A stretch of 28,091 bases of DNA, taken from positions 1 to 28,091 of IMG/VR virus record IMGVR_UViG_3300030102_001674, one strand, 5' to 3'. Every line of letters begins with the position of its first letter. Position 1 is the first letter of the stretch. Of the stretch, positions 2,912-27,992 are shown piece after piece. Below the pieces are notes generated by a model. That model did not search any database, was not told where the DNA came from, and saw nothing but the letters and a program-made list of their open reading frames with translations. This DNA comes from a virus. The translations under genes were made by a program, and so were the position numbers.

Positions 2912-3823
2912 ATGGCTATATCACGATCACAACTAGTTAAAGAACTAGAGCCAGGCTTGAATGCACTATTCGGCTTGGAATATAAAAGGTATGAAAATCA
3001 GCATGCTGAAATTTATACTACAGAATCATCTGACAGAGCTTTTGAAGAAGAAGTAATGTTAAGTGGTTTTGCAAACGCACAAGTAAAAGGTGAAGGTTCA
3101 GGAGTTTCATTCGATGAAGCACAAGAAACTTTCACTGCGAGATACACTCACGAGACTGTAGCTTTAGCATTTGCTATCACAGAAGAAGCTATCGAAGATA
3201 ACCTCTACGATAGATTAGCTTCTAGATATACAAAAGCTTTAGCAAGATCTATGAGTAATGCTAAACAAGTAAAAGCTGTTGAATTATTAATCAACGGTTT
3301 ACCATCTACTGCGACTTTCAAGTCTGGAGATGGTGTTGCTTTATTTAGTACATCTCACCCAACGATAGCTGGTACTTTCAAAAATACTCTATCTACTCAA
3401 GCTGACCTTAACGAAACGTCATTAGAGCAGTCAATGATTGACATCTCTAAAATGACTGACGAGAGAGGTTTGAGAATTGCAGCTAGAGGACTAAAAATGA
3501 TAGTTCCTTCAGAAAATCAGTTCACAGCTGAGAGATTATTAAAATCTCAAGGTAGAACGTCTACAGCTGATAATGATATCAATGCAATCGTTTCAATGGG
3601 AATGGTTCCTCAAGGATACAGAGTGAACAATTACCTAACTGACTCTGATTCATTCTACATCATTACAGACGTGCCTAATGGCATGAAGATGTTCAACAGA
3701 GCTCCATTGACAACTGCAATGGAAGGTGACTTTGATACTGGAAACGTTAGATACAAAGCTAGAGAAAGATACTCATTTGGAGTATCAGACCCTAGAGGTA
3801 TCTTCGGCGTTGAAGGTGCGTAA
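2912..3823 (+). CDS. Major capsid protein, Mu gpT-like
   Basis: The 303-aa protein matches the Mu-like major head subunit (gpT) type of HK97-fold capsid proteins. An N-terminal region to about residue 60 is followed by the P-domain and spine helices (HETVALAFAITEEAIEDNLY, then a long helix through ARSMSNAKQVKAVELL). The typical GVALFSTSHPTIAG segment comes at about residues 143-156, and the C-terminus is a beta-rich axial domain ending RERYSFGVSDPRGIFGVEGA. It would form the icosahedral shell, several hundred copies per virion. A clear AGGAG lies before the ATG. A hairpin terminator 13 bases after the stop fits the need for high, separately ended expression. The co-chaperonin upstream is a plausible folding aid. 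Confidence 0.88.
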   Translation: MAISRSQLVKELEPGLNALFGLEYKRYENQHAEIYTTESSDRAFEEEVMLSGFANAQVKGEGSGVSFDEAQETFTARYTHETVALAFAITEEAIEDNLYDRLASRYTKALARSMSNAKQVKAVELLINGLPSTATFKSGDGVALFSTSHPTIAGTFKNTLSTQADLNETSLEQSMIDISKMTDERGLRIAARGLKMIVPSENQFTAERLLKSQGRTSTADNDINAIVSMGMVPQGYRVNNYLTDSDSFYIITDVPNGMKMFNRAPLTTAMEGDFDTGNVRYKARERYSFGVSDPRGIFGVEGA

Positions 3824-10620: not shown

Positions 10621-11688
10621 ATGAAAAAAGTAGACTCTAAACTTACATCAGGTAAGAACACAAAAACCATACAAAATAGAAAAGGTAAAAGTTTTGGTTA
10701 TCAGGTTCTTGGTTTCGGATCTGGTGGAGCTGCAGTTAAATTTGTAGAAGCATCAGGAGGAACAGTCACAACCAACGGAAATTTTAAAGTACACACTTTT
10801 ACAGGTAATGGTACTTTTACAGTAAGTGATCCAGGAAATGCTGCAGGATCAAATTCAGTACAATATTTAGTAGTGGCCGGTGGTGGCGGTGGAGGTGATT
10901 ATCAAGGCGGAGGCGCTGGTGCAGGAGGTCTTAGAACTAATTTTCCATCTCCAGCTACAGGAGGAACTGCTGTCACTGCACAAGATTATCCAATTTCAAT
11001 TGGTGGTGGCGGTGGTGGAGCAAACTTTCCAAGTTCAAGAGGTCCAAGTGGATCAACATCATCAGGTTTAGGTATAAGCAGTAGTGGTGGCGGTGGTGGC
11101 GGAGGATATAGTAATCCATTAAAAGAAGGTAATCCTGGAGGATCTGGTGGTGGTGGAGGTAGAAAAGAACCAGGTGGTCCAGGGGCTTCTGGAGCTGGTA
11201 ATGCTGGTGGATACTCGCCTCCTGAAGGAAACAATGGTGGTGGAGCTAATTATTCAAATAACCATGCTAGAGGTGCAGGTGGTGGCGGTGGCGCTGGAGC
11301 TGTTGGAGTTGCAGCAAGTCCTGGAGACAATCCTGGAGGTGCAGGAGGTGCAGGAAGTCAGGTTAACATAGATGGTAATAATTATTATTGGGCCGGTGGT
11401 GGCGGTGGTTCTTGTACTTATCCAGGTGGACCAAATAGAAGAGGAGGAAATGGCGGCATAGGTGGTGGCGGCGGTGGTGGAGCAAGAAGTTCAGCAAATC
11501 CACCTGATTCAACAGGTGGTGGATCAGCTATAAATTCAGGTGGTAATGGAACAGGAAGTTCATCAAGTGGTGCTGGTGGACAAGGTGGCGCAAATACAGG
11601 TGGTGGCGGAGGTGGTTCTTCTCATACTCCTGGCAACGCTGGTAGTGGAGGAAGTGGTATAGTAGTTATAACTTATAAATTTCAATAA
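10621..11688 (+). CDS. Glycine-rich adhesin-like tail fibre tip
   Basis: The 355-aa product has a basic N-terminus (1-40), a beta cap (about 45-85: FKVHTFTGNGTFTV), a glycine-dominated core (about 86-340) with many runs of five to eight Gly separated by Ser, Asn and Pro turns, and a closing strand GSGIVVITYKFQ. This matches the domain pattern of glycine-rich proteins in which Gly-rich segments pack as polyglycine-II helices, as described for the gp38 adhesin of T2/S16-type phages. It would sit at the fibre end and contact the receptor through variable loops between Gly runs. The Pro-, Ser- and Arg-containing turns (PGG, RKEPGGPG, PNRRGG) are exposed candidates for the modification enzymes encoded downstream; that link is speculative. 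Confidence 0.65.
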   Translation: MKKVDSKLTSGKNTKTIQNRKGKSFGYQVLGFGSGGAAVKFVEASGGTVTTNGNFKVHTFTGNGTFTVSDPGNAAGSNSVQYLVVAGGGGGGDYQGGGAGAGGLRTNFPSPATGGTAVTAQDYPISIGGGGGGANFPSSRGPSGSTSSGLGISSSGGGGGGGYSNPLKEGNPGGSGGGGGRKEPGGPGASGAGNAGGYSPPEGNNGGGANYSNNHARGAGGGGGAGAVGVAASPGDNPGGAGGAGSQVNIDGNNYYWAGGGGGSCTYPGGPNRRGGNGGIGGGGGGGARSSANPPDSTGGGSAINSGGNGTGSSSSGAGGQGGANTGGGGGGSSHTPGNAGSGGSGIVVITYKFQ

Positions 11689-11689
11689 T

Positions 11690-12139
11690 ATGGCACATTT
11701 TGCAAAAATAGATTCTGACAATAAAGTATTATCAATCATGAGAGTTAATGATGATGATATGAAAAATTCAGATGGAGTAGAACAAGAATCGATTGGGCAA
11801 CAACATTTAGAAACAAATGCTAATTGGCCTGCTAATCAATGGATTCAAACCTCTTACAATACCTTTGAAAATTCTCATAAATTAGGTGGAACACCTTTTA
11901 GAGGAAACTATGCAGTAGTGGGTGGATCATGGGATTCGGATAATCAAATATTTTGGAATGAAAAACCCCATGACTCTTGGATAAAAAATACATCTGAAGC
12001 AAGATGGCAATCTCCAGTTGGAGATCCTTCTCCTTTAACATCAGAACAACAATCGCAAAACGATGCTGGCACTCATTTTTGGGAGTATAGCTGGAATGAA
12101 TCAAATCAAATTTGGGATTTGACAAATACTAAACCATAA
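11690..12139 (+). CDS. 149-aa fibre-associated protein of a widespread phage family
   Basis: The product starts MAHFAKIDSDNKVLSIMRVN and contains WIQTSYNTFENSHKLGGTPF and a Trp-rich C-terminal half. I recognise this as a family found next to fibre genes in many marine podo- and myoviruses; no activity is established to my knowledge. The conserved aromatic pattern (SWIKNTSEARWQSP, then WEYSWNESNQIWDL) suggests a beta domain, possibly carbohydrate-facing. The start follows the adhesin stop by one base with no clear ribosome site, so it is probably coupled to it. It closes the fibre block before the accessory island. Confidence 0.55.
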   Translation: MAHFAKIDSDNKVLSIMRVNDDDMKNSDGVEQESIGQQHLETNANWPANQWIQTSYNTFENSHKLGGTPFRGNYAVVGGSWDSDNQIFWNEKPHDSWIKNTSEARWQSPVGDPSPLTSEQQSQNDAGTHFWEYSWNESNQIWDLTNTKP

Positions 12140-12143
12140 TTAT

Positions 12144-12172
12144 TTGACACACAAATAACAAAGATATATACT
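12144..12172 (+). promoter_or_regulatory. Near-consensus sigma-70 promoter of the accessory island
   Basis: TTGACA (12144-12149, perfect consensus) and TATACT (12167-12172, one mismatch) are separated by exactly 17 bases. The expected start at about 12179-12180 is only three to four bases before the ATG at 12183, so the transcript would be nearly leaderless. Confidence 0.75.
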
Positions 12173-12182
12173 TTCTATAGGT

Positions 12183-12977
12183 ATGTTAAGAAAGAAAATA
12201 CATTTTTTATGTAGTCTACCTCGTTCAGGTAATACTGTTTTTGGTGCTTTATTAAACAGCACTAATAAAATGTTAGTCACTCCTAATAGTTTAACTCCAG
12301 AGATTGTGTATCAATTACATTTATTAAAAAAAAATGATCTTTTTATAAATTTTCCTAATTATAAATCTTTAGATTATTTAATATCTGAAGCATTACAATT
12401 ATATTATCGTGATTGGAATAAGGAAATTATTTTAGATAGAGGACCATGGGGTATTAGAGATAATCTTTTTTTAACTAAAAAAATAAATAAAAATTGTAAG
12501 TATATTATTTTATACAGGCCCTTTTTAGAATGCCTTGCATCTATGGTTAGAATAAGTAAACCAGATAATGTAGAAGAGTATTGTAATTTCTTAATGCAAG
12601 ATAATGAGATTTTTGGTAAGAATTTAAAATCTATTATTAATCTAGTTGATAGTAAAAATAAGTTTAAAATTGTTTATTATAAAAAATTAATCTTAAACCC
12701 TATTAAAGAATTAAATTCTGTTTTTAAATATTTAAATATTAAATCTAATATTAAAAAAATAAAGTTAAAAGATTTTAGTATAAACAATATAAAATATGAT
12801 GATTCTTATCTAGGTGTAGACATGCATAAGATAGATCTTGATATTAAATCAACTAAAGAATATAGTAAAATAGATATAGAAAATTGTTTATCTAAAAAAA
12901 TTGTAAATAAATATAAAGAAATAGATAGCTTACTACAGGAGAAAATATATGGAAAAAGAGATACTATCTCAAATTAA
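12183..12977 (+). CDS. Sulfotransferase
   Basis: The 264-aa protein has the two PAPS-binding signatures of sulfotransferases. The 5'-phosphosulfate loop is IHFLCSLPRSGNT (6-18), with the LPRSGNT core; the 3'-phosphate motif lies at YIILYRPFLECLASMVR (107-123), with Arg112 and Ser120 eight residues apart, as in PAPS-dependent enzymes. It would move a sulfuryl group from PAPS to a hydroxyl or amine of a sugar, peptide or small molecule. Length fits a compact single-domain member. No signal peptide or membrane segment, so it acts in the host cytoplasm. It is the first gene of the AT-rich island, almost leaderless from the 12144 promoter and with no Shine-Dalgarno site. Acceptor unknown. Confidence 0.8.
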   Translation: MLRKKIHFLCSLPRSGNTVFGALLNSTNKMLVTPNSLTPEIVYQLHLLKKNDLFINFPNYKSLDYLISEALQLYYRDWNKEIILDRGPWGIRDNLFLTKKINKNCKYIILYRPFLECLASMVRISKPDNVEEYCNFLMQDNEIFGKNLKSIINLVDSKNKFKIVYYKKLILNPIKELNSVFKYLNIKSNIKKIKLKDFSINNIKYDDSYLGVDMHKIDLDIKSTKEYSKIDIENCLSKKIVNKYKEIDSLLQEKIYGKRDTISN

Positions 12978-13509
12978 TTTATATTATGGGCAGGTTAAAA
13001 TGCCAAAAGGATTTGAAATAGATTTAAAATCTTTGTCTGATAATATATTACAAAACGGGATTAAAAATTTATTTTATAATATTTTAAAATCAGAGTATAA
13101 ATATCCATCTAATAATGTTCTACAGTCTAGTTTTAAAAAAACTGAATTTTTATTTTCTAAAGCTTGGGATATGTTGTGCACTTATATTATGGAGTATATG
13201 CATGTAGACAATAAATTGATTGTAGAAAAAAGAGATACTTGGGGTGATATGTATGCTCCTGATGAAAAAAGTGAAATACTACATGATATTAAAAATCATT
13301 CTAACTATGTTTTATTATATGGGGTTAAAGTAGATAATTGTCTTGTAAAATTATTTTTTAAAGATAGTGAAGATAAAGAAAGAATATGGAACATACCTTT
13401 AATTAATAATAAATTTATTATGTTTCCTTCTAATGTTAAATATCAAATAATAAATAATCAAACAAATAACTTTAATATCATTCAAACAATAACCTATGAT
13501 TCTATCTAA
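12949..13509 (+). CDS. Degenerate 2OG-oxygenase-like protein
   Basis: The 186-aa product starts in the end of the sulfotransferase gene (29-base overlap) with AGGAG at 12937-12941, the only good ribosome site in the island. Its C-terminal half (about 95-183) follows the strand order of phage 2OG-Fe(II) oxygenase-like proteins: W98, LHDIKNHSNYVLLYGVKVD (111-129), then FIMFPSNVKYQI (156-167). In active relatives, including the neighbouring gene (FPSFVWHRV), the residue four after FPS is an iron-ligand His; here it is Tyr165. The protein is therefore either inactive, binding metal differently, or a partner subunit. The N-terminal 90 residues are helical and unassigned. The family assignment is moderate to weak. 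Confidence 0.45.
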   Translation: MEKEILSQINLYYGQVKMPKGFEIDLKSLSDNILQNGIKNLFYNILKSEYKYPSNNVLQSSFKKTEFLFSKAWDMLCTYIMEYMHVDNKLIVEKRDTWGDMYAPDEKSEILHDIKNHSNYVLLYGVKVDNCLVKLFFKDSEDKERIWNIPLINNKFIMFPSNVKYQIINNQTNNFNIIQTITYDSI

Positions 13510-14116
13510 TTATTATTGGTATTTTAAATCTGCATTAACACCTAAATTCTGTGATGATGTTATAGCTTATGCAAATTCAAAAAAAGAAGTCATGGCTAGA
13601 ACAGGTAATTATGGTCATAAAAAATTAAAGAAGCAAGAAGTTAAAGATTTAAAAAGAAAAAGAAATTCAGATTTGGTATGGCTTAACGATGTCTGGATAT
13701 ATAAAGAATTACATCCATATTTGCGTATAGCAAATAAAAATGCTGGTTGGAATTATGATTGGGATTGGTCTGAATCTTGTCAATTTACAAAGTATAAACT
13801 AAATCAATATTACGATTGGCATTGCGATAGTTGGCCTAAACCATATGAAGAAGAAGGACCCGAACAAGGTAAGATTAGAAAACTGTCTATGACTTGTCAA
13901 TTAACAGATGGTTCAGAATACACGGGTGGTGAATTAGAATTTGATTTTAGAAACAACGATCCACCTAAAATATCTAATATACAAAAATGCAAAGAGATTT
14001 TACCAAAAGGATCTATTGTTGTATTTCCTAGTTTTGTGTGGCACAGAGTTAAACCCGTGACATCAGGCACAAGATATAGTCTTGTGGTATGGAATTTAGG
14101 AAGGCCATTTAAATAA
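13496..14116 (+). CDS. 2OG-Fe(II) oxygenase, prolyl-4-hydroxylase type
   Basis: The 206-aa protein carries the full active site of the P4H/PKHD-like class. The iron triad is His109 and Asp111 in YDWHCDSW and His183 in VFPSFVWHRV, and Arg193 in SGTRYSLVVW is placed to bind the 2-oxoglutarate carboxylate. Between them are the expected RKLSMTCQLTDGSEYTGGEL strands. It would hydroxylate a peptide, amino acid or small molecule with release of succinate and CO2. The start overlaps the previous gene by 14 bases and lacks a Shine-Dalgarno site, implying coupled translation. Marine phages often carry such enzymes; a prolyl substrate is suggested by class only. Confidence 0.8.
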   Translation: MILSNYYWYFKSALTPKFCDDVIAYANSKKEVMARTGNYGHKKLKKQEVKDLKRKRNSDLVWLNDVWIYKELHPYLRIANKNAGWNYDWDWSESCQFTKYKLNQYYDWHCDSWPKPYEEEGPEQGKIRKLSMTCQLTDGSEYTGGELEFDFRNNDPPKISNIQKCKEILPKGSIVVFPSFVWHRVKPVTSGTRYSLVVWNLGRPFK

Positions 14117-14119
14117 TTA

Positions 14120-14764
14120 ATGACTAAAATAAGTAATTACATAAAAAAAGAAGATATTATTTATGATAAAGATATTAATTTTCAAGTGATGATGGAATGG
14201 GAAAAACCATATATGAAAAAATTAATTAATAATTTAAAACCTAGAGGTGATGTACTAGAGATTGGTTTTGGATTTGGTTTTTCAGCAGATGAAATACAAA
14301 AATATAATATTAAATCACATACAATTATTGAACCAATTCTTTTTAAAGAAGCTAAAAAATGGGCCTCAAAACAAAAACAAAAAGTAATTATAGTAAAAGG
14401 TTATTGGCAAGAAGTATTAAAAAAATTAGATACTTTTGATACAATATTTTTTGATGATGCACCCTCTAAAAGGTATAGAGACAAAACTAATACAAGAGTG
14501 TATAAATTTATTTATCAAGTTTTAAAAAATCATGTAAATAAAAATACAAAAATGTCTTGGTATTTAGACGAGTCTATTTATTGGTTGTGCCCTCCTCAAA
14601 CAAACTACAATATAAAATCTTTTAAAATAAAACCCCCTTTGCATTGTAAATACTATCAAGGAGATACAATGTATTTACCTTTGTTAAAATTTAATGAAGG
14701 TAAATCAAAAAGTAATTTAATAGAATTAGCTTTAGATGATAATTTAATGCTACAAAAAATATAA
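14120..14764 (+). CDS. SAM-dependent methyltransferase, guanidinoacetate/Rmt2-like
   Basis: The 214-aa protein is a class I methyltransferase. VMMEWEKPYM (23-32), VLEIGFGFGFSADEIQ (45-60, SAM loop), HTIIE (67-71, acidic end of strand 2), KVIIVKGYWQEV (88-99) and FDTIFFDDAP (106-115) match in order and spacing the blocks of guanidinoacetate N-methyltransferase and of the arginine delta-N-methyltransferase Rmt2. In that family the WE...PYM block and the Asp after strand 4 shape the guanidino pocket. I infer methylation of a guanidino group: free or peptidyl arginine, or a guanidino metabolite. The C-terminal third (about 150-214) departs from GAMT, so substrate is open. It follows the oxygenase by three bases, with no close ribosome site. 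Confidence 0.75.
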   Translation: MTKISNYIKKEDIIYDKDINFQVMMEWEKPYMKKLINNLKPRGDVLEIGFGFGFSADEIQKYNIKSHTIIEPILFKEAKKWASKQKQKVIIVKGYWQEVLKKLDTFDTIFFDDAPSKRYRDKTNTRVYKFIYQVLKNHVNKNTKMSWYLDESIYWLCPPQTNYNIKSFKIKPPLHCKYYQGDTMYLPLLKFNEGKSKSNLIELALDDNLMLQKI

Positions 14765-14765
14765 A

Positions 14766-15266
14766 ATGAATTATATGAAATATAATGTAATTGATGACTA
14801 TTTACCTAAAGATAAATTTTTAGAAATAAAAAATCAAATAGTAAATAATGAATACTTTCCTTGGTATTTTAATAACTATAAAAGTGGTAATGATAAAAAT
14901 AATTTTTTAGATTATCAATTTGTTCATAATTTTTTTAAAGACAATGCAGTTAATTCTCCTTATTTTAATAAATTAGACTGCTTAATTAAAAGATTAAAAA
15001 TTAAAAAATTGGTTAGAGCAAAAGCTAATTTAAATCCTATTTCTCATAAAATAATTAAATTTGAAAAACACCAAGACCTATATGAAAAAGGTTTTACAAG
15101 TGCTATATTTTATTTAAATACTAATAATGGTTATACTAAAATAGAAAATAAAAAAGTACAGTCAATAGAAAATAGAGTAGTTATATTTCCATCTGATGTA
15201 AATCATTTTGGAACCAATGCAACTAACCTATCTAATAGAATAGTAATAAATTTTGTTTATGTTTAA
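14766..15266 (+). CDS. 2OG-Fe(II) oxygenase (phage type)
   Basis: The 166-aa product shows the small phage-type 2OG oxygenase pattern: FPWYFN (31-36) and DYQFVHNFF (49-57) near the N-terminus, RAKANLNP (84-91), His102-Gln-Asp104 (KHQD) as the HxD iron pair, FYLNTNNGYTKIEN, the distal iron His147 (SDVNHFGT) and Arg158 in NRIVINF for 2-oxoglutarate. The complete ligand set suggests activity. The class differs from the genes on both sides. A second in-frame ATG lies four codons in (14775), and neither start has a ribosome site. One base separates it from the methyltransferase stop. Confidence 0.75.
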   Translation: MNYMKYNVIDDYLPKDKFLEIKNQIVNNEYFPWYFNNYKSGNDKNNFLDYQFVHNFFKDNAVNSPYFNKLDCLIKRLKIKKLVRAKANLNPISHKIIKFEKHQDLYEKGFTSAIFYLNTNNGYTKIENKKVQSIENRVVIFPSDVNHFGTNATNLSNRIVINFVYV

Positions 15267-15885
15267 AAAAAATAAATACACAATAATAAAAAATGCAATA
15301 TCAAAAGATCTAGCTATTTTTATAGCAAATTATTTTTTAATTAAAAAACAAGTTTATGATACCTGTCGTAGCACTAGATATATCTCCCCCTTTGAACAGA
15401 TACTAGGATTTTATGAACCTTCAAAAACTGGACAAGTTCCTGATACCTATGCTCACTATGCGGATATAGCTATGGAAACTTTATTACTTAAGTGTCAACC
15501 GGCTATGGAAAAAGCAACAGGATTAAAATTATACCCTGCATATACTTATGCAAGAATATATAAAAAAGGAGATGTTTTAAAAAGACATATTGATAGATTT
15601 AGTTGTGAGATATCTACAACTATGAATCTTGGTGGTGATCCATGGCCTATATATCTTGAACCATCAGGGAAAAAAAACAAGAAAGGTATTAAAATAGATT
15701 TAAATCCAGGGGACATGTTAGTGTACAGAGGTGAGGATTTAGAACATTGGAGAGAAAAATTTAAAGGCAAAGAATGCATACAGGTTTTTCTACACTATAA
15801 TAATAGCGAGACACCAGGAGCTAAAGATAATATGTTTGACAAACGTCCACATTTAGGTCTTCCTTCTTATTTTGGACGTGAATAA
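15259..15885 (+). CDS. 2OG-Fe(II) oxygenase, third type
   Basis: The 208-aa product contains YPAYTYARIYKKGDVLKRHI (92-111) with His110 and Asp112 as the HxD pair, a middle strand CEISTTMNLGG, the GDMLVYRGEDLEHWRE segment (151-166) with distal His163, and a closing QVFLHYNN strand. I do not see the usual Arg in the last strand; Gln175 stands near that place, as I recall for this phage subgroup. It would be a non-heme iron hydroxylase. ATG 15259 overlaps the previous stop by eight bases; a TTG at 15253 in the same frame is a less likely start. Its stop is part of the long hairpin that ends the island. Confidence 0.75.
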   Translation: MFKKNKYTIIKNAISKDLAIFIANYFLIKKQVYDTCRSTRYISPFEQILGFYEPSKTGQVPDTYAHYADIAMETLLLKCQPAMEKATGLKLYPAYTYARIYKKGDVLKRHIDRFSCEISTTMNLGGDPWPIYLEPSGKKNKKGIKIDLNPGDMLVYRGEDLEHWREKFKGKECIQVFLHYNNSETPGAKDNMFDKRPHLGLPSYFGRE

Positions 15886-15942
15886 GATTTTTAGATGGGG
15901 GCAGTACACCACCACATACCTACTGCTCCCTTCTAAAAATCT
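15885..15942 (+). terminator. Long hairpin closing the accessory island
   Basis: AGATTTTTAG (15885-15894) pairs with CTAAAAATCT (15933-15942), continuing inward through an A-T pair, one T-T mismatch and GGGGGCAGTA (15897-15906) with TACTGCTCCC (15921-15930, one G-T wobble), around a 14-base loop. The 22-position stem begins at the last base of the stop codon. No T-run follows, so it may be a terminator of unusual form, an mRNA 3' stabiliser or an RNase III site. Confidence 0.6.
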
Positions 15943-15991: not shown

Positions 15992-18199
15992 ATGCTTCAA
16001 AAAATAGGATTTCAACCAGGTATCAATAAACAAATTTCAGAAACTGGCGCTGAAAGTCAATGGGTTAATTGTGATAATGCTAGATTTCGTTATGGCGTAC
16101 CTGAAAAAATAGGTGGCTGGAATCAATTAGGTGGTGTTAATCAAAATGAATTGACAGGTGCAGGCAGGGGTCTTCATCATTTTATAAATAGTTTATCTAG
16201 AAAATATGCGATTATAGGAACTAATAGAATATTGTATGCTTTTTCTGGAGGTGTTTTTTATGATATACATCCCATACAATCTACAACAACTCTTACAAGC
16301 GCATTTACCACGACCAACGGATCACCTACTGTCACAATAACATATTCATCAGCTCATGGTTTAGCACCTGGTGACATACTTTTAATGAGCAGTTTTTCAA
16401 CAATTACAAATTCAAATTACAGTGCATCAGATTTTGATGACAAAAAGTTTATGGTTGCTACCACTCCTACTAATACTACAGCAACAATAACTATGCCATC
16501 TAATGAATCTGGTTCAGGGGCAACTACCTCTGGAGGAATAACAATAGAAAAATATTATACTGTTGGACCAGCAGTTCAAGCAAAAGGTTTTGGTTATGGA
16601 TTAGGATCTTGGGGTGGAGAAGATAGTTCTGCTATCACAACAACATTAAACGGTGCATTATTAGATGATACTGCAGGGACAGGTGGGTCAGGAACTTCTA
16701 TCACACTAACAAGCACAACAAACTTTCCTGATTCAGGAACAAACTTTATTCAGGTAGGAACAGAAGAAATATCTTACACAGGTGTTTCTGGAAATGATTT
16801 AACAGGTATTACAAGAGCAGTTAGAGGAAGCACACGAGCAGCACATTCTGATGGTGCTACAGTCACAAATTCATCTGATTATGTTGCATGGGGTGAAGCG
16901 GCATCTGGAGATTTAGTATTAGAACCTGGTATGTGGTCTATAGATAATTTTGGTGACAAAGCTATCTGTCTAATACATGATGGTCCTGTTTTTTCTTGGG
17001 ACTCATCTTTATCAAATGCAACATCAACAAGAGCTACAATCATATCTGGTGCACCAACCGCATCAAGACACATGGTCGTATCTACACCAGACAGACACTT
17101 AGTATTCTTTGGAACAGAGACAACTATTGGAACACCATCAACACAAGATAATATGTTTATCAGATTCTCGGACCAAGAAGACATAAACACATATGTACCA
17201 ACAGCAACCAATACAGCTGGCACACAGAGACTGGCCGACGGATCACAGATCATGGGAGCAATAAGAGGTAGAGATGCAATCTATGTTTGGACTGATACAG
17301 CTTTATTTACTCAACGTTTTGTAGGTCAACCATTTACTTTTGCGTTTGCACAGGTTGGGACCAACTGTGGACTTGTAGGACAGAATGCATGTGTAGAAGT
17401 TGATGGTGCTGCATACTGGATGTCAGAGAATGGTTTCTTTAGATATGCTGGTAGACTAGAATCATTACCATGTTTGGTAGAGGATTTTGTTTACGATGAT
17501 ATAAATCTAGCGTCTGGTAATCAGATGGTATCAGCTGGATTAAATAATTTGTTTGGTGAAGTTATATGGTTCTATCCAAGTGCTTCATCTTCTGTTGTTA
17601 ATAAACAGGTCACATATAATTATTTTGATTCATCTCCGCAAAGACCTGTTTGGACAATAGGTACACTAGCAAGAACAATGTGGAGAGATTCTGCAGTATT
17701 TGGTTTACCGCATGCTTTAGAGTATGATGCTAGCACAGACACATCTTTTGATGTTGTGGGTAATACAGAAGGTAGAACATCATACTATGAACACGAAACA
17801 GGGACTGATCAAAATAGAAATGGAACTATAACTGCAATCACAGCTAACATAGAATCAGGAGATTTTGATATTACACAACAAAGATCATTACAAGGTCAAA
17901 CAACAGGTGTTGCAACATTTAGAGGTGATGGAGAGTTCTTAATGAAGATAAGAAGATTTGTTCCTGACTTTATAAATCAAACAGGAACAACAAGAATAAC
18001 GCTACAATTAAAAAATTATCCTAATAGCTCACAAGCTAGTTCACCTCTTGGACCATTTGATATAACATCTTCTACAACTAAAATAGATACGAGAGCTAGA
18101 GCTAGAGCAATCGCTTTAAAAGTAGAAAACACAGGTGCCTCTCAAACTTGGAGAATAGGAACTTTTAGATTAGATATACAACCGGACGGTAGACGATAA
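15992..18199 (+). CDS. Tail nozzle / DNA-stabilisation protein, P22 gp10-like
   Basis: The 735-aa protein begins MLQKIGFQPGINKQISETGA and continues WVNCDNARFRYGVPEKIGGW, the recognisable opening of the P22 gp10-type packaged-DNA stabilisation proteins, which are related in role to the T7 gp12 nozzle. The central part is beta-propeller-like with repeated strand pairs (YAIIGTNRILYAFSGG; GDKAICLIHDGPVFSWDSS; YWMSENGFFRYAG). A small inserted beta domain at about 230-290 (NFPDSGTNFIQVGTEEISYT) is widespread in phage virion proteins. It would form the distal tail tube below the adaptors. It is split from the adaptor genes by the fibre block and the accessory island. Confidence 0.75.
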   Translation: MLQKIGFQPGINKQISETGAESQWVNCDNARFRYGVPEKIGGWNQLGGVNQNELTGAGRGLHHFINSLSRKYAIIGTNRILYAFSGGVFYDIHPIQSTTTLTSAFTTTNGSPTVTITYSSAHGLAPGDILLMSSFSTITNSNYSASDFDDKKFMVATTPTNTTATITMPSNESGSGATTSGGITIEKYYTVGPAVQAKGFGYGLGSWGGEDSSAITTTLNGALLDDTAGTGGSGTSITLTSTTNFPDSGTNFIQVGTEEISYTGVSGNDLTGITRAVRGSTRAAHSDGATVTNSSDYVAWGEAASGDLVLEPGMWSIDNFGDKAICLIHDGPVFSWDSSLSNATSTRATIISGAPTASRHMVVSTPDRHLVFFGTETTIGTPSTQDNMFIRFSDQEDINTYVPTATNTAGTQRLADGSQIMGAIRGRDAIYVWTDTALFTQRFVGQPFTFAFAQVGTNCGLVGQNACVEVDGAAYWMSENGFFRYAGRLESLPCLVEDFVYDDINLASGNQMVSAGLNNLFGEVIWFYPSASSSVVNKQVTYNYFDSSPQRPVWTIGTLARTMWRDSAVFGLPHALEYDASTDTSFDVVGNTEGRTSYYEHETGTDQNRNGTITAITANIESGDFDITQQRSLQGQTTGVATFRGDGEFLMKIRRFVPDFINQTGTTRITLQLKNYPNSSQASSPLGPFDITSSTTKIDTRARARAIALKVENTGASQTWRIGTFRLDIQPDGRR

Positions 18200-23495: not shown

Positions 23496-26400
23496 ATGGA
23501 CGAGAATAAAAGATCACAGATACAACCTTTTCTACAAACAGCTTTAAACAAAGATCCATTAGATAGAAGTTTTTTAGAAAAACTAGCTGTTGGAATTTAC
23601 AATCCTGAAGGAAGAGAAGATGCAAATAAACCAGCAGCTGTATTAAGCGATGAATACCAAAAGTTTGTATTAGATTTACCAGGAGAGGTACAGGCTGATG
23701 TAGAAAGATATCTAAATATATTTAGAAATAACCCACAACCTGTATTAAATTTTTTAGATGAATATCAAAAAGAAGGATTTTCAAATTATTTTGATAGTGT
23801 TAAAAATTTTAAAGACATAGCAGATGAAAAAGATCTTGGTAGATTTGCAGATTTTAATTACCTTGGCAAAGGTTCATACGACGCTTTATACAGAAAAGAT
23901 GAGACGGGTGATAAAGCTAGAAAAAAAGTTATGGACTCTAAACTTACTCAAGCTTTGGCTATTGGTCCAGCCACTGGTATATATACAGGAGTAAGAGGAA
24001 CAGCAGAATTATTTTCTGCGTTATCAGATTTATATTTAGATACAGAAACATTGGATAATGTTCAAAAAGCATTACCTGAAATGAATCTTGATGATATTTA
24101 TGGTGAAGATGAAGGCGGTGTTGCAAAATTTACCTCACTACTAACACAATACGGTACAGGTTTTTCAATTGCACAGAAGATAGCAAAAAATTTATTTGGT
24201 AAAAAAATAAAAAGAAAACTCGCAGAAAAAGCTGCAGCTATTGCAGCTACTAATAAAGCAGCTAATTACGGGGTTAACCTTGCAAAGTATGGTTATTATT
24301 GGGTGTTGCCTGCTTTTGCAGCTGATACTACAGTTTCTGCTACAGGACAAAGATCTGTTGGAGATATATTTGGAGATGAAAGTGGTAATTTTTTAGAGAG
24401 AGCTTTAGCTAACACGAAACTTGAAAGTCTAGAAGGTATTACAGATCCAAAAGAATACGCAGCTGCTGTATTAAGAAACAAATTAAAATTTGGTACAGAG
24501 GGCACAGCATTTTTAGGTGCTCTTAAATTAATTGGCCCATCTATGAAAATGATGTCTACAGGATCTGGTGTTATACTATCTAATGTAGTTGACCCTGCAT
24601 TAACTGGAATGACAAAAGTATTGGCTAGTGAAAAAAGTCAGATACCTAGATTATTTAGAACTGTAAGTAAAGCTGCAGATACAGTTCTAACAAAAGCTGG
24701 TATACCAAGATCAGATCTTTGGAAATATTCTGAGTATGGTTCTGGAGTTAAAACCACTATATTACGAGCCATAGATCAGTTCACACAAAATTTTAAATCT
24801 GGTGGACCATTTAATGTGCAGGCCAGAAACGAACTTAAAAAATTAGATGGGTTAAATCGATCTGCAAAAAAATCTACAGATATATTTATAAAAGATCTAG
24901 ATAGGCAGATGTATAAATTAGCGGAGGCTGGGTTTAATGATATATTGTTTAACACTAATACGGCTAATCAGGCACTAAGGTACTGGTCTGATGTTTTAGA
25001 ATTTATGCGTGGAAATGTTAAAATAAATAAATTACCAGAATCTTTACAATCTTCTTCTTTTGCGATTAGAAAATTAATTGATGATTACTCAACAGAACTA
25101 TCACCAATATTAAAAGGTATGAATGTTAAAGATGATATTATAAAAAATATGGGTAGATATTTACACCAGGGCTATGAGATATTTAAAAATAATAAATACA
25201 GAGCTCCAAAAGAAATATACAATAACGCCATAGATTATTTTGTAAAACTACAAAAATCTTTTAATAAAAATATATCACCTTCTGATGCAAAAATAGAGGC
25301 TACAGCAATGGTAAATAGAGTTCTTGCAATAGGCAGATCAGAGGGATCTACACCTGCACAAAGATTAAAAGCCATAGCAAATGCGGCACAAGAATTAAAA
25401 ATACCAAAAAATACATTTAATAAATTTTTTAGTGACGAACAACTTTTACCAGATGCAATAGCTAAACTAATGGGTAAGGTAGAAGATCCAAAACAGATTA
25501 TTATGGACACTATTGTTGAGATGGCACATACAGCAAACAGTGTAAAAGCATACAAAGAGATAGCTGACTTTGGTATGAATAATTTTATATTTAGAAATAG
25601 AAGAGAGTACATAGAATTTGCAAAGAAAAACGGTATTCAATCACCAAGAGATTTAGTAGAGATAACAGTTGCTAAACCATACAATCTAGATCTACAAAAA
25701 ATATTTACAGTGGGTAAAGACAAAATGTTGACATTGCCCGAAATAGCAAAAGCCATGAAAGATAATACACTAATCATGGATCAACTATTAAAACTACCAT
25801 TTATGAAATCTGCACTTGCAATTAAAGCGGGTATACAGATGAACAAAACAGTTTTATCTTTAATGACACAAATGCGTAATATAACTACAGCTGCTATGTT
25901 TGCAACAGCAAATGGGCATGTAGGGTCTGGTGCGTCGGTTGCAGATAATTTTAGAATATTGTTTGATGATCTCCTTGGTAAAACAAAAGATCCAAAAAAA
26001 TTAAAAGAAGTTTTACAAGAGGCTTTGGATAATGGTGCAATAGATTCCTCTACAATTGCACAAGAACTTGAACAGATGATACCAGAACTTATGGGTCCGA
26101 CTAGTTTTAATTTAGGAAAAACTAAAGGTACAACTATTGTTCAAGGTACAACCTCTGATAATATACTTGCACATCTTTTTTCAAACAAAGGAGCTTTAGG
26201 TAGGGTTGTTGGTAAGTCCATGGAGGCATATCAATTAGGTGATAATCTTTGGAAACTATTTGGTTATAATTATGTTAAATCACAATTAAAACCAGCATTA
26301 AGAAACATAGATGATGTTAAAAAATATTTTAGAGAAATATATAAATATGAATATAGACCTGTTAGAGCTGATGGCACTAAAAAATCTTTGGATGATGCTA

Positions 26401-27992
26401 TCAAAGAGATATCTGGTATCGAGATAAGAGATACATATCCAAACTATTCTATGATACCAACGTTCGTGCAAAACGTTAGAAAATTTCCATTTTTTGGAAA
26501 TTTCGTTGCATTCGTATCAGAGATGTACAGAAATTCTTTTCAGATAGTAAGAGGTGGAATGCGTAAGATGCAGTCTGAAAATCCATATATAAGACAGATT
26601 GGTGCAAGACAATTAATAGGTTGGACAACAACTGTTAAAATAACAACTCCTGTTGTTATGAGTTCTGCACAGAAACTGACTGGTATTACAGAAGAGATGT
26701 ATAATGCATACAAAGATAGATTTGCAGCACCATATGAAAAAGCATCTGATCTTATACCTGTCTCACAACAACAAGAAGATAGATCATGGAAAGCAAGTAA
26801 TTTTTCATACCTTGTACCATATGCAGATGTGGTCGCACCATTTAAAGCTGCATTACAAACATTTAGACAAGGCAAAGACACAGATGAGAATACAGCTATG
26901 TTATTTGCTAAATCTTTAAAATCTTTTATAATGCGATCTACCGAAGCCTTTTTATCACCATCAATTTCAGCTGAACTAGCATTAGAATTAACTCCAGGTG
27001 AAGATGGAATATTTAGAACTAAACAAGGTGGTGTTATTGCAGATATGAAAAATGATCCTGACTGGTTTTCTAAGATTATGTATCATTCATATAGAAAAGC
27101 TACACCTACAACTATAAGAAGTGCTGAAGAGATATCACAAGCTTTAGGTAAAGACTTATCTAAATCTGCAATTAAAAGAGATCTGTTTGATACAGTATTA
27201 AAAGTATTTACAGGATTTAGTATAACCAAACAAGATCCATACACATCAATGAGATTTAAACTTGGCACATACTCTGGATTATTATCTGATGCAAGAAGTG
27301 CATTTACTAGAGATGTCAATAATGCAAGCAAATTACAAAATGATGCTAGGTTAATTAAAAGCGGATTAGAGGCAGAGACTATTGCAACTGAGTTTGATAA
27401 ATTACAATCAAACAACTACAGAGTATTATCTGAAGTATACAAAGATGTGCAAGCATTACGTATATTAAATTTTACTGAAAAAGAAATAAAAGATTTGTTA
27501 AGAGGTAGAAGAGCTTTGTCAGATAAAGATGTTAATTTGGTAATGTCGGGTATATATAATCCAGAAAATTTACCAAACTTTAAAAAAGATTCTTCAATAA
27601 GAAATACAATTAAAAATATAAATAGAGAACTTGAAACAGATTACAAAATAAATGATTTTGTTAATAGACAGAAATTAATAGAAATAAGAAATAAATACAG
27701 AAACATACCTTTAGGTTTATCTGAAGAGGATAGAAAAGAATTTTTAGAATCAACTATGGAAAGAAAAATGAACATTAAGGATAAAAAAATTGAAGAACGA
27801 TTTGACTTACAAGAAAGTCAAGATCAAAGTAGCTTACCTCAACCAGTTAAACCAGCTGCTCCTTTTTTACCAGACCCAGAAATAGCTAATATGTTTGCGT
27901 CTAAGATAGATCCAACATCAGGCTTGACACAGACGGAGTCTGCATTACTATCACCCGAAGAACAGATTATTGCAAAAAGGTTAAGAACATAA
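23496..27992 (+). CDS. Giant internal virion / DNA-ejection protein (1498 aa)
   Basis: This is the largest gene in the window and a mainly helical protein. The N-terminal 260 residues are soluble and charged. Hydrophobic stretches occur at about 262-285 (YWVLPAFAADTTVSATGQ) and 335-365 (LGALKLIGPSMKMMSTGS). A very long charged helical body follows, ending in a Pro-rich linker (PQPVKPAAPFLPDPE) and a short helix. Size and last position after the other internal proteins match the large core proteins (T7 gp16, 1318 aa) that are ejected to form a channel. I do not see a transglycosylase (SLT) signature at the N-terminus, a difference from T7 gp16. AAGGAG fixes the start. Confidence 0.6.
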   Translation: MDENKRSQIQPFLQTALNKDPLDRSFLEKLAVGIYNPEGREDANKPAAVLSDEYQKFVLDLPGEVQADVERYLNIFRNNPQPVLNFLDEYQKEGFSNYFDSVKNFKDIADEKDLGRFADFNYLGKGSYDALYRKDETGDKARKKVMDSKLTQALAIGPATGIYTGVRGTAELFSALSDLYLDTETLDNVQKALPEMNLDDIYGEDEGGVAKFTSLLTQYGTGFSIAQKIAKNLFGKKIKRKLAEKAAAIAATNKAANYGVNLAKYGYYWVLPAFAADTTVSATGQRSVGDIFGDESGNFLERALANTKLESLEGITDPKEYAAAVLRNKLKFGTEGTAFLGALKLIGPSMKMMSTGSGVILSNVVDPALTGMTKVLASEKSQIPRLFRTVSKAADTVLTKAGIPRSDLWKYSEYGSGVKTTILRAIDQFTQNFKSGGPFNVQARNELKKLDGLNRSAKKSTDIFIKDLDRQMYKLAEAGFNDILFNTNTANQALRYWSDVLEFMRGNVKINKLPESLQSSSFAIRKLIDDYSTELSPILKGMNVKDDIIKNMGRYLHQGYEIFKNNKYRAPKEIYNNAIDYFVKLQKSFNKNISPSDAKIEATAMVNRVLAIGRSEGSTPAQRLKAIANAAQELKIPKNTFNKFFSDEQLLPDAIAKLMGKVEDPKQIIMDTIVEMAHTANSVKAYKEIADFGMNNFIFRNRREYIEFAKKNGIQSPRDLVEITVAKPYNLDLQKIFTVGKDKMLTLPEIAKAMKDNTLIMDQLLKLPFMKSALAIKAGIQMNKTVLSLMTQMRNITTAAMFATANGHVGSGASVADNFRILFDDLLGKTKDPKKLKEVLQEALDNGAIDSSTIAQELEQMIPELMGPTSFNLGKTKGTTIVQGTTSDNILAHLFSNKGALGRVVGKSMEAYQLGDNLWKLFGYNYVKSQLKPALRNIDDVKKYFREIYKYEYRPVRADGTKKSLDDAIKEISGIEIRDTYPNYSMIPTFVQNVRKFPFFGNFVAFVSEMYRNSFQIVRGGMRKMQSENPYIRQIGARQLIGWTTTVKITTPVVMSSAQKLTGITEEMYNAYKDRFAAPYEKASDLIPVSQQQEDRSWKASNFSYLVPYADVVAPFKAALQTFRQGKDTDENTAMLFAKSLKSFIMRSTEAFLSPSISAELALELTPGEDGIFRTKQGGVIADMKNDPDWFSKIMYHSYRKATPTTIRSAEEISQALGKDLSKSAIKRDLFDTVLKVFTGFSITKQDPYTSMRFKLGTYSGLLSDARSAFTRDVNNASKLQNDARLIKSGLEAETIATEFDKLQSNNYRVLSEVYKDVQALRILNFTEKEIKDLLRGRRALSDKDVNLVMSGIYNPENLPNFKKDSSIRNTIKNINRELETDYKINDFVNRQKLIEIRNKYRNIPLGLSEEDRKEFLESTMERKMNIKDKKIEERFDLQESQDQSSLPQPVKPAAPFLPDPEIANMFASKIDPTSGLTQTESALLSPEEQIIAKRLRT

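Follow-up and report, generated by a model that had tools for sequence, protein, structure and literature searches.

A reassorting set of oxygenases and tailoring enzymes beside a pelagiphage tail adhesin, possibly acting on the adhesin itself

The virus contig IMGVR_UViG_3300030102_001674 from IMG/VR, analysed here over its full 28,091 nucleotides (nt; hereafter the window), comes from an HTVC023P-type pelagiphage, a SAR11-type marine phage. In blastn it matches HTVC023P and 023Pt_psg01 best, with about 73%. The window contains an island of six enzyme genes on the plus strand (12183-15885), next to the tail adhesins. We find that the island is a coherent reassorting tailoring cassette, a description that fits where a fixed pathway and a set of unrelated cargo do not. 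We predict, at a probability of roughly 45%, that it serves the post-translational tailoring of the structures with which the phage itself binds its receptor; the glycine-rich adhesin encoded just upstream is the most likely substrate. In gene comparisons spanning hundreds of contigs from related viruses, genes 2 and 6 of the island co-vary with a Pro-Pro motif of this adhesin, unlike most other island enzymes, an association that is new here.

In the proposed mechanism, gene 6 would hydroxylate adhesin prolines, notably at the Pro-Pro motif, probably jointly with gene 3. Gene 2, with a prolyl 4-hydroxylase (P4H) fold and no iron site, may bring the enzymes to the substrate or present the substrate to them. 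Genes 1, 4 and 5 would be extras open to exchange, attaching sulfate, a methyl group (to a guanidino group, for example of arginine) or further hydroxyls. If related phages swap one such extra, the surface that contacts the host would change in its chemistry. This makes a specific prediction: prolines in GNTPPVSPPQGN-type Pro-Pro motifs of a named virion protein would show a shift of +16 Da.

The enzyme families named in a first-pass annotation of this DNA hold up in Pfam (genes 1, 3 and 5), phmmer (gene 4) and AlphaFold (gene 2) analyses (Table 1). Gene 6 appears to encode a P4H-type 2-oxoglutarate (2OG)-Fe(II) oxygenase. The best Protein Data Bank (PDB) match of its model is the bacterial P4H 4iw3 (2e-9), the fold is a double-stranded beta-helix, and the HxD...H triad (H112, D114, H165) is invariant in 152 homologues. 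Gene 3 has a PiuC-like PDB match (4e-5) and keeps H109, D111, H183 and R193 in 97-100% of 180 homologues. Fold and motif association make genes 3 and 6 candidate prolyl hydroxylases. Gene 2 is predicted from its model to be a conserved pseudo-oxygenase: Foldseek matches it to 2OG and PHD2 structures and it has the double-stranded beta-helix, but the HxD...H iron triad is absent as a conserved pattern across 90 homologues, with Y165 where the distal His would be. Its ratio of nonsynonymous to synonymous substitution rates (dN/dS) of 0.10-0.17 indicates purifying selection. The P. putida P4H (on EF-Tu) and PHD2 share the fold and iron triad of gene 6 and the fold of gene 2; sequence identity is just 10-16%, and gene 2 lacks the iron ligands.

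The other three genes appear to be accessory. Gene 1 encodes a sulfotransferase dependent on 3'-phosphoadenosine 5'-phosphosulfate (PAPS). Its 5'-phosphosulfate-binding (5'-PSB) and 3'-phosphate-binding (3'-PB) motifs are present, with R14, T18, R112 and S120 in 41/41 homologues that have a residue there, and its dN/dS is about 0.25. Gene 5 is a further 2OG-Fe(II) oxygenase, with H102, D104, H147 and R158 kept in 95-99% of 107 homologues. Gene 4 has an S-adenosylmethionine (SAM) methyltransferase fold, and E28 and D112, the residues to which the guanidino group binds in GAMT, are invariant across 18 homologues. The match to rat GAMT keeps this Glu and Asp and barely extends to the C-terminal part. 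Going by sequence likeness, gene 4, a phage gene adjoining tail genes, probably acts on a guanidino group. The only close relatives found in cellular collections are on two contigs of Chlamydiae metagenome-assembled genomes (L385 and L386).

By scanning IMG/VR with genes 4, 1 and 2 we collected about 140 loci. Among the loci examined, the complete six-gene set is found elsewhere only in L007, a near-identical contig, and we reject the fixed multistep pathway that had been proposed for the island. The next-closest relatives (L028-L031) contain genes 1, 2, 3, 5 and 6 and lack the methyltransferase. Gene 3 directly abuts gene 5 in L030, and in L028 and L031 the places between genes 3 and 6 are taken by different 2OG-like genes. 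From these gene contents it follows that accessory members are exchanged singly.

We also took a census anchored solely on the downstream border gene, which is blind to island content and is restricted to phages near the window's clade. At least two oxygenases are present in 50 of the 52 contigs in which the slot is visible (median 4, maximum 11). Genes of the gene 3 type occur in 50 contigs, gene 6 in 43 and gene 2 in 12. The slot itself is near-fixed while its members change, and the earlier term "moron" is too weak for it. Its cargo is coherent: 266 of the 283 non-adhesin island open reading frames (ORFs) of at least 100 amino acids (aa) encode 2OG-fold or tailoring enzymes (94%; family identities from Pfam on representatives). 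These are 217 2OG enzymes, 12 of the gene 2 type, 8 of the DUF6445 type, 9 carbamoyltransferases, 8 tryptophan halogenases, 7 sulfotransferases, 3 cupin/JmjC proteins and 2 methyltransferases.

The first-pass annotation had reasoned that exchange of single genes, with the six never co-occurring elsewhere, would mark the island as a hotspot of unrelated cargo. Close relatives do gain or swap single genes; however, one functional kind makes up 94% of the cargo, the near-fixed slot occurs in several phage types, and purifying selection acts on five of the six genes (the five that could be tested). A recombination hotspot of this sort, already disfavoured, is very improbable.

Gene 6 tracks glycine-rich adhesins in these phages (40/43 versus 3/9, p 3e-4; 25/26 versus 2/7 in a thinned set, p 5e-4). 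Within the adhesin, the association centres on a motif of the form GN-T-PP-x-S-P-x-QGN or Y-S-PP-EGN, which in the window reads GNAGGYSPPEGNNGG. Of the loci that have the site, 0/14 lacking both genes 2 and 6 contain Pro-Pro, as against 24/51 that have gene 6 alone and 58/67 that have the two together. The association persists after adhesins are clustered at 65% identity (p 2e-5), and the two seeming exceptions in that clustering, L002 and L086, do have gene 6, beyond the search span. For both genes the direction is identical in the border-gene-anchored and the oxygenase-anchored subsets.

Pairs of loci matched by border-gene identity, which is only a partial correction for ancestry, point the same way. 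The motif occurs solely in the enzyme-bearing member at a ratio of 23:3 pairs for gene 2 (p 9e-5) and of 8:0 pairs for gene 6 (p 0.008); the other enzyme families are not significant in these pairs. L163 and L331 have border genes that are 97% identical, yet they differ both in gene 2 and in the motif. Over all loci, we find no clear motif association for gene 5, ox5, P4Hb, oxC2, the sulfotransferase, the halogenase or the carbamoyltransferase (p at least 0.066). In single subsets ox5 and P4Hb reach p 0.015-0.021, in the opposite direction. Gene 4 is marginal (7/7, p 0.048).

Several observations weigh against the adhesin as substrate. Three loci have gene 6 and no glycine-rich adhesin. The total proline content of the adhesin separated perfectly with gene 6 in a first set, but two of the five "negatives" there (L002 and L008) actually carry gene 6, and with more loci the difference is weaker and the ranges overlap (median 7.2 versus 5.1, p 0.003). 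We dropped proline content as a correlate after this weakening and the motif test took its place, so the motif was picked post hoc from the same data. The residue composition of the adhesin shows no match to the sulfotransferase, methyltransferase, halogenase or carbamoyltransferase; pairing tryptophan with the halogenase, tyrosine with the sulfotransferase, arginine with the methyltransferase and serine/threonine with the carbamoyltransferase, in the adhesin or in the 149-aa protein encoded behind it, gave a null result. Phage S-P4 (NC_048102) has its gene 6 homologue (99775-100374) among replication genes, with DNA methyltransferase and clamp-loader neighbours, outside the tail region. The support for the adhesin consists of co-variation and context, and a modified adhesin peptide is an unproven prediction.

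Block exchange of the adhesin with its neighbours could also be a partial source of the motif association. At its strongest, this would make the association mere genetic linkage, with the enzymes acting on some other target. Genes 2, 3 and 6 lie side by side with those for the adhesin and the 149-aa protein, and the strongest correlate, gene 2, is usually the nearest enzyme gene. Linkage by itself does not account for the enzymes that usually lie between genes 3 and 6 (gene 5, ox5 and P4Hb), which are not positively associated, whereas the more distant gene 6 is. We consider linkage as the whole explanation rather unlikely.

The first-pass annotation had offered three targets: the neighbouring adhesin, a host surface polymer, and a host peptide or metabolite. 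The adhesin gains circumstantial support from the motif co-variation, and the main rival is a host polymer or metabolite. Under this alternative the enzymes would modify a polymer on the host surface or build a small molecule, for superinfection exclusion or as a secondary metabolite, and their proximity to the adhesin would stem from selection on host contact that acts on both, or from a site that tolerates insertions. Halogenases, carbamoyltransferases, sulfotransferases and 2OG enzymes are typical of metabolite and glycan tailoring, and the chemistry differs among close relatives. Iyer et al. (PMC7824862) interpreted a cyanophage carbamoyltransferase/halogenase/2OG cluster of like make-up as serving capsule decoration or secondary metabolism. 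Its classes (2OG oxygenases, cupin-like proteins, halogenase, carbamoyltransferase and methyltransferase) occur in island relatives too; in contrast to our analysis, genes 2 and 6 were not treated as a pair and no link to an adhesin was drawn. Among the island genes examined, we find no glycosyltransferase, nonribosomal peptide or polyketide synthase, or other scaffold-building gene, and a polymer or metabolite target leaves unexplained why just genes 2 and 6 follow the adhesin Pro-Pro motif. We judge it somewhat unlikely.

Host proteins or host metabolism are a further candidate target, for example through prolyl hydroxylation of EF-Tu or ribosomal proteins, RMT2-like arginine methylation or the lowering of 2-oxoglutarate. 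The P4H that gene 6 resembles most in structure was crystallised with EF-Tu, the S-P4 homologue lies among replication genes, and nitrogen signalling or DNA repair has been suggested for cyanophage 2OG proteins (PMC3037559). A P4H-like fold does not by itself identify a substrate, however, and a conserved target predicts neither the 2-11 varied oxygenases beside adhesins nor the motif association. A host target appears quite improbable.

Clusters of like enzymes, including gene 6 homologues, are also present in tail-gene regions of the pelagimyophages HTVC008M and Mosig and of the cyanomyophages S-SSM5, S-SM1 and syn9; clusters of this kind come after tail fibre genes in pelagimyophages and cyanomyophages. 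HTVC008M, S-SSM5, S-SM1 and Mosig encode a glycine-rich protein as well, and the first three of these also encode the 149-aa protein. No glycine-rich protein was found in syn9 or S-RIM32 within the stretch read. In syn9 (32965-36070), two tryptophan halogenase genes directly follow a tail fibre assembly gene and precede an oxygenase cluster; no natural substrate is known for related phage halogenases.

The adhesin next to the island is a probable host-recognition protein, and it evolves fast (dN/dS about 0.4-0.6). In S16 gp38 and Pam3 gp24 it is the glycine-rich tip that binds the receptor (PMC9608196); the window adhesin is alike in having a glycine-rich domain with variable distal loops. The Pam3 chaperone gp25 is, like the 149-aa protein, the product of a small gene of similar size behind the adhesin, a likeness in position and size only. 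In the part of that paper covered here, tailoring enzymes are not mentioned for these adhesins. The 149-aa companion accompanies the cluster in podoviruses and myoviruses. Some phages have 2-4 tandem glycine-rich adhesin genes ahead of the cassette (HTVC023P gp59-62, our locus L002, and the L034 group).

Earlier work has described oxygenase clusters in these phages; the reading with the adhesin as their target is new. HTVC023P (PMC9599517) belongs to the same phage group and has the slot and core genes as in the window, with gp64, gp65 and gp67 syntenic with genes 2, 3 and 6. That paper reports that 2OG oxygenases and "ferrochelatases" are located together in phages of this type. It takes the latter, the gp67-type genes, as real ferrochelatases, whereas we predict P4H-fold oxygenases; a sulfotransferase, a methyltransferase and an adhesin target are not mentioned in the part of it covered here. 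PHD-like structures have been reported for marine phage 2OG proteins (PMC12774648). Published suggestions for such oxygenase clusters are nitrogen signalling, DNA repair, haem and secondary metabolites. Our literature search, which covered few subscription papers and preprints, returned no proposal that they modify the phage's own adhesin.

The ferrochelatase label comes from databases, and fold and motifs lead us to reject it for gene 6. No ferrochelatase family is among the Pfam matches of 41 gene 6 members, and the 50 best PDB fold matches are all 2OG oxygenases or P4H. Such labels are attached to PHROG 2954 ("ferrochelatase", gene 6) and PHROG 274 ("DNA endonuclease V", gene 5), as well as to many cyanophage records. 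We argue that both labels are wrong and that the proteins are 2OG-Fe(II) oxygenases by motif and, for gene 6, also by fold. The first label has already shaped one published interpretation.

More generally, and tentatively, marine phages may diversify their receptor-binding tips chemically, through reassorting hydroxylases, sulfotransferases, methyltransferases, halogenases and carbamoyltransferases that act on the glycine-rich adhesin, together with a conserved pseudo-hydroxylase as adaptor for the substrate. If true, phages would have a new means of varying host binding, a chemical counterpart to host-range systems that diversify sequence. Phages would alter their own host-recognition surface by swapping enzymes, and host range would not be predictable from adhesin sequence alone.

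The layout of the island agrees with much of what had been described from the letters. The six ORFs follow one another in the same direction, either overlapping or separated by no more than 3 nt. The near-consensus promoter ahead of gene 1 is the best among 35 promoter-like sites, against 34 expected from chance, and it is largely kept in 5 relatives. The long hairpin behind the operon is present; it has no T tract and thus is not a standard intrinsic terminator. A new promoter had been reported after it, but our scan from the hairpin to the next gene gave no strong one. The island is likely a separate transcription unit. Placement by the tail adhesins and modification as a shared theme are also supported. 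Overall the earlier interpretation stands in part and the observation beneath it in full.

The reported AT-richness is exact (13 G/C in 12661-12780, 48 in 3601-3720), and the G+C content (GC) of the island is 24.8% against 36.5% for the remaining window. In 87/87 relatives, too, island GC is below border-gene GC. At third codon positions (GC3) the island (0.09-0.19) is like its neighbours (0.12-0.26). We therefore attribute the AT-richness to amino-acid make-up, enzymes as against virion proteins rich in glycine, serine and threonine, and reject it as evidence of a recent foreign origin.

Table 1. Features in and around the island (pLDDT, predicted local distance difference test).
Feature	Positions	Strand	Size (aa)	Evidence or remark
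Glycine-rich tail adhesin, proposed substrate	10621-11688	+	355	PHROG 2295, 2e-41; Pfam Gly_rich_2, 1e-5
Candidate modification site GNAGGYSPPEGNNGG	11197-11241	+		Adhesin residues 193-207, Pro-Pro at 200-201; motif co-varies with genes 2 and 6
Conserved adhesin companion	11690-12139	+	149	PHROG 7759, 1e-29
Sigma-70-like promoter TTGACA-17-TATACT	12144-12172	+		11/12 consensus bases; in the gap ahead of gene 1
Gene 1, PAPS sulfotransferase, accessory/exchangeable	12183-12977	+	264	Pfam PF00685, 7e-7
Gene 2, predicted conserved pseudo-oxygenase, 2OG/P4H fold without iron ligands, core	12949-13509	+	186	AlphaFold pLDDT 90
Gene 3, P4H/PKHD-like 2OG-Fe(II) oxygenase, core	13496-14116	+	206	Pfam PF13640, 9e-16
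Gene 4, GAMT-like SAM methyltransferase, accessory	14120-14764	+	214	phmmer to rat GAMT, 8e-17
Gene 5, 2OG-Fe(II) oxygenase, accessory	14766-15266	+	166	Pfam PF13640, 2e-4; PHROG 274, 2e-38
Gene 6, P4H-fold 2OG-Fe(II) oxygenase, core	15253-15885	+	210	AlphaFold pLDDT 93.7
Long hairpin behind the operon	~15885-15942	+		-29.3 kcal/mol, z -8.6; no T tract
Border gene, virion structural/stabilisation protein	15992-18199	+		PHROG 3287, 2e-96; island-neutral census anchor

Homologues of gene 4 are found in other settings as well. They lie between capsid and tail genes, off the adhesin slot, in L012, L013 and L014, beside tail genes in L024, next to a glycine-rich protein in L027, and in neither position in L022. 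The L015 island, which has a gene 4 homologue, contains an APS-kinase-like gene (APS, adenosine 5'-phosphosulfate; 1779-2171) that could supply PAPS; no sulfotransferase was detected in that island.

At some loci the oxygenases are antisense to the tail genes yet occupy the same slot: L094, L095, L101, L105, L108, L115, L117, L119, L127, L137 and L143, and also L158, L162 and L169. The order in these antisense loci is often gene 3, gene 6, gene 2. Downstream of the tail region, the window contains an ORF of 1498 aa (23496-27992).

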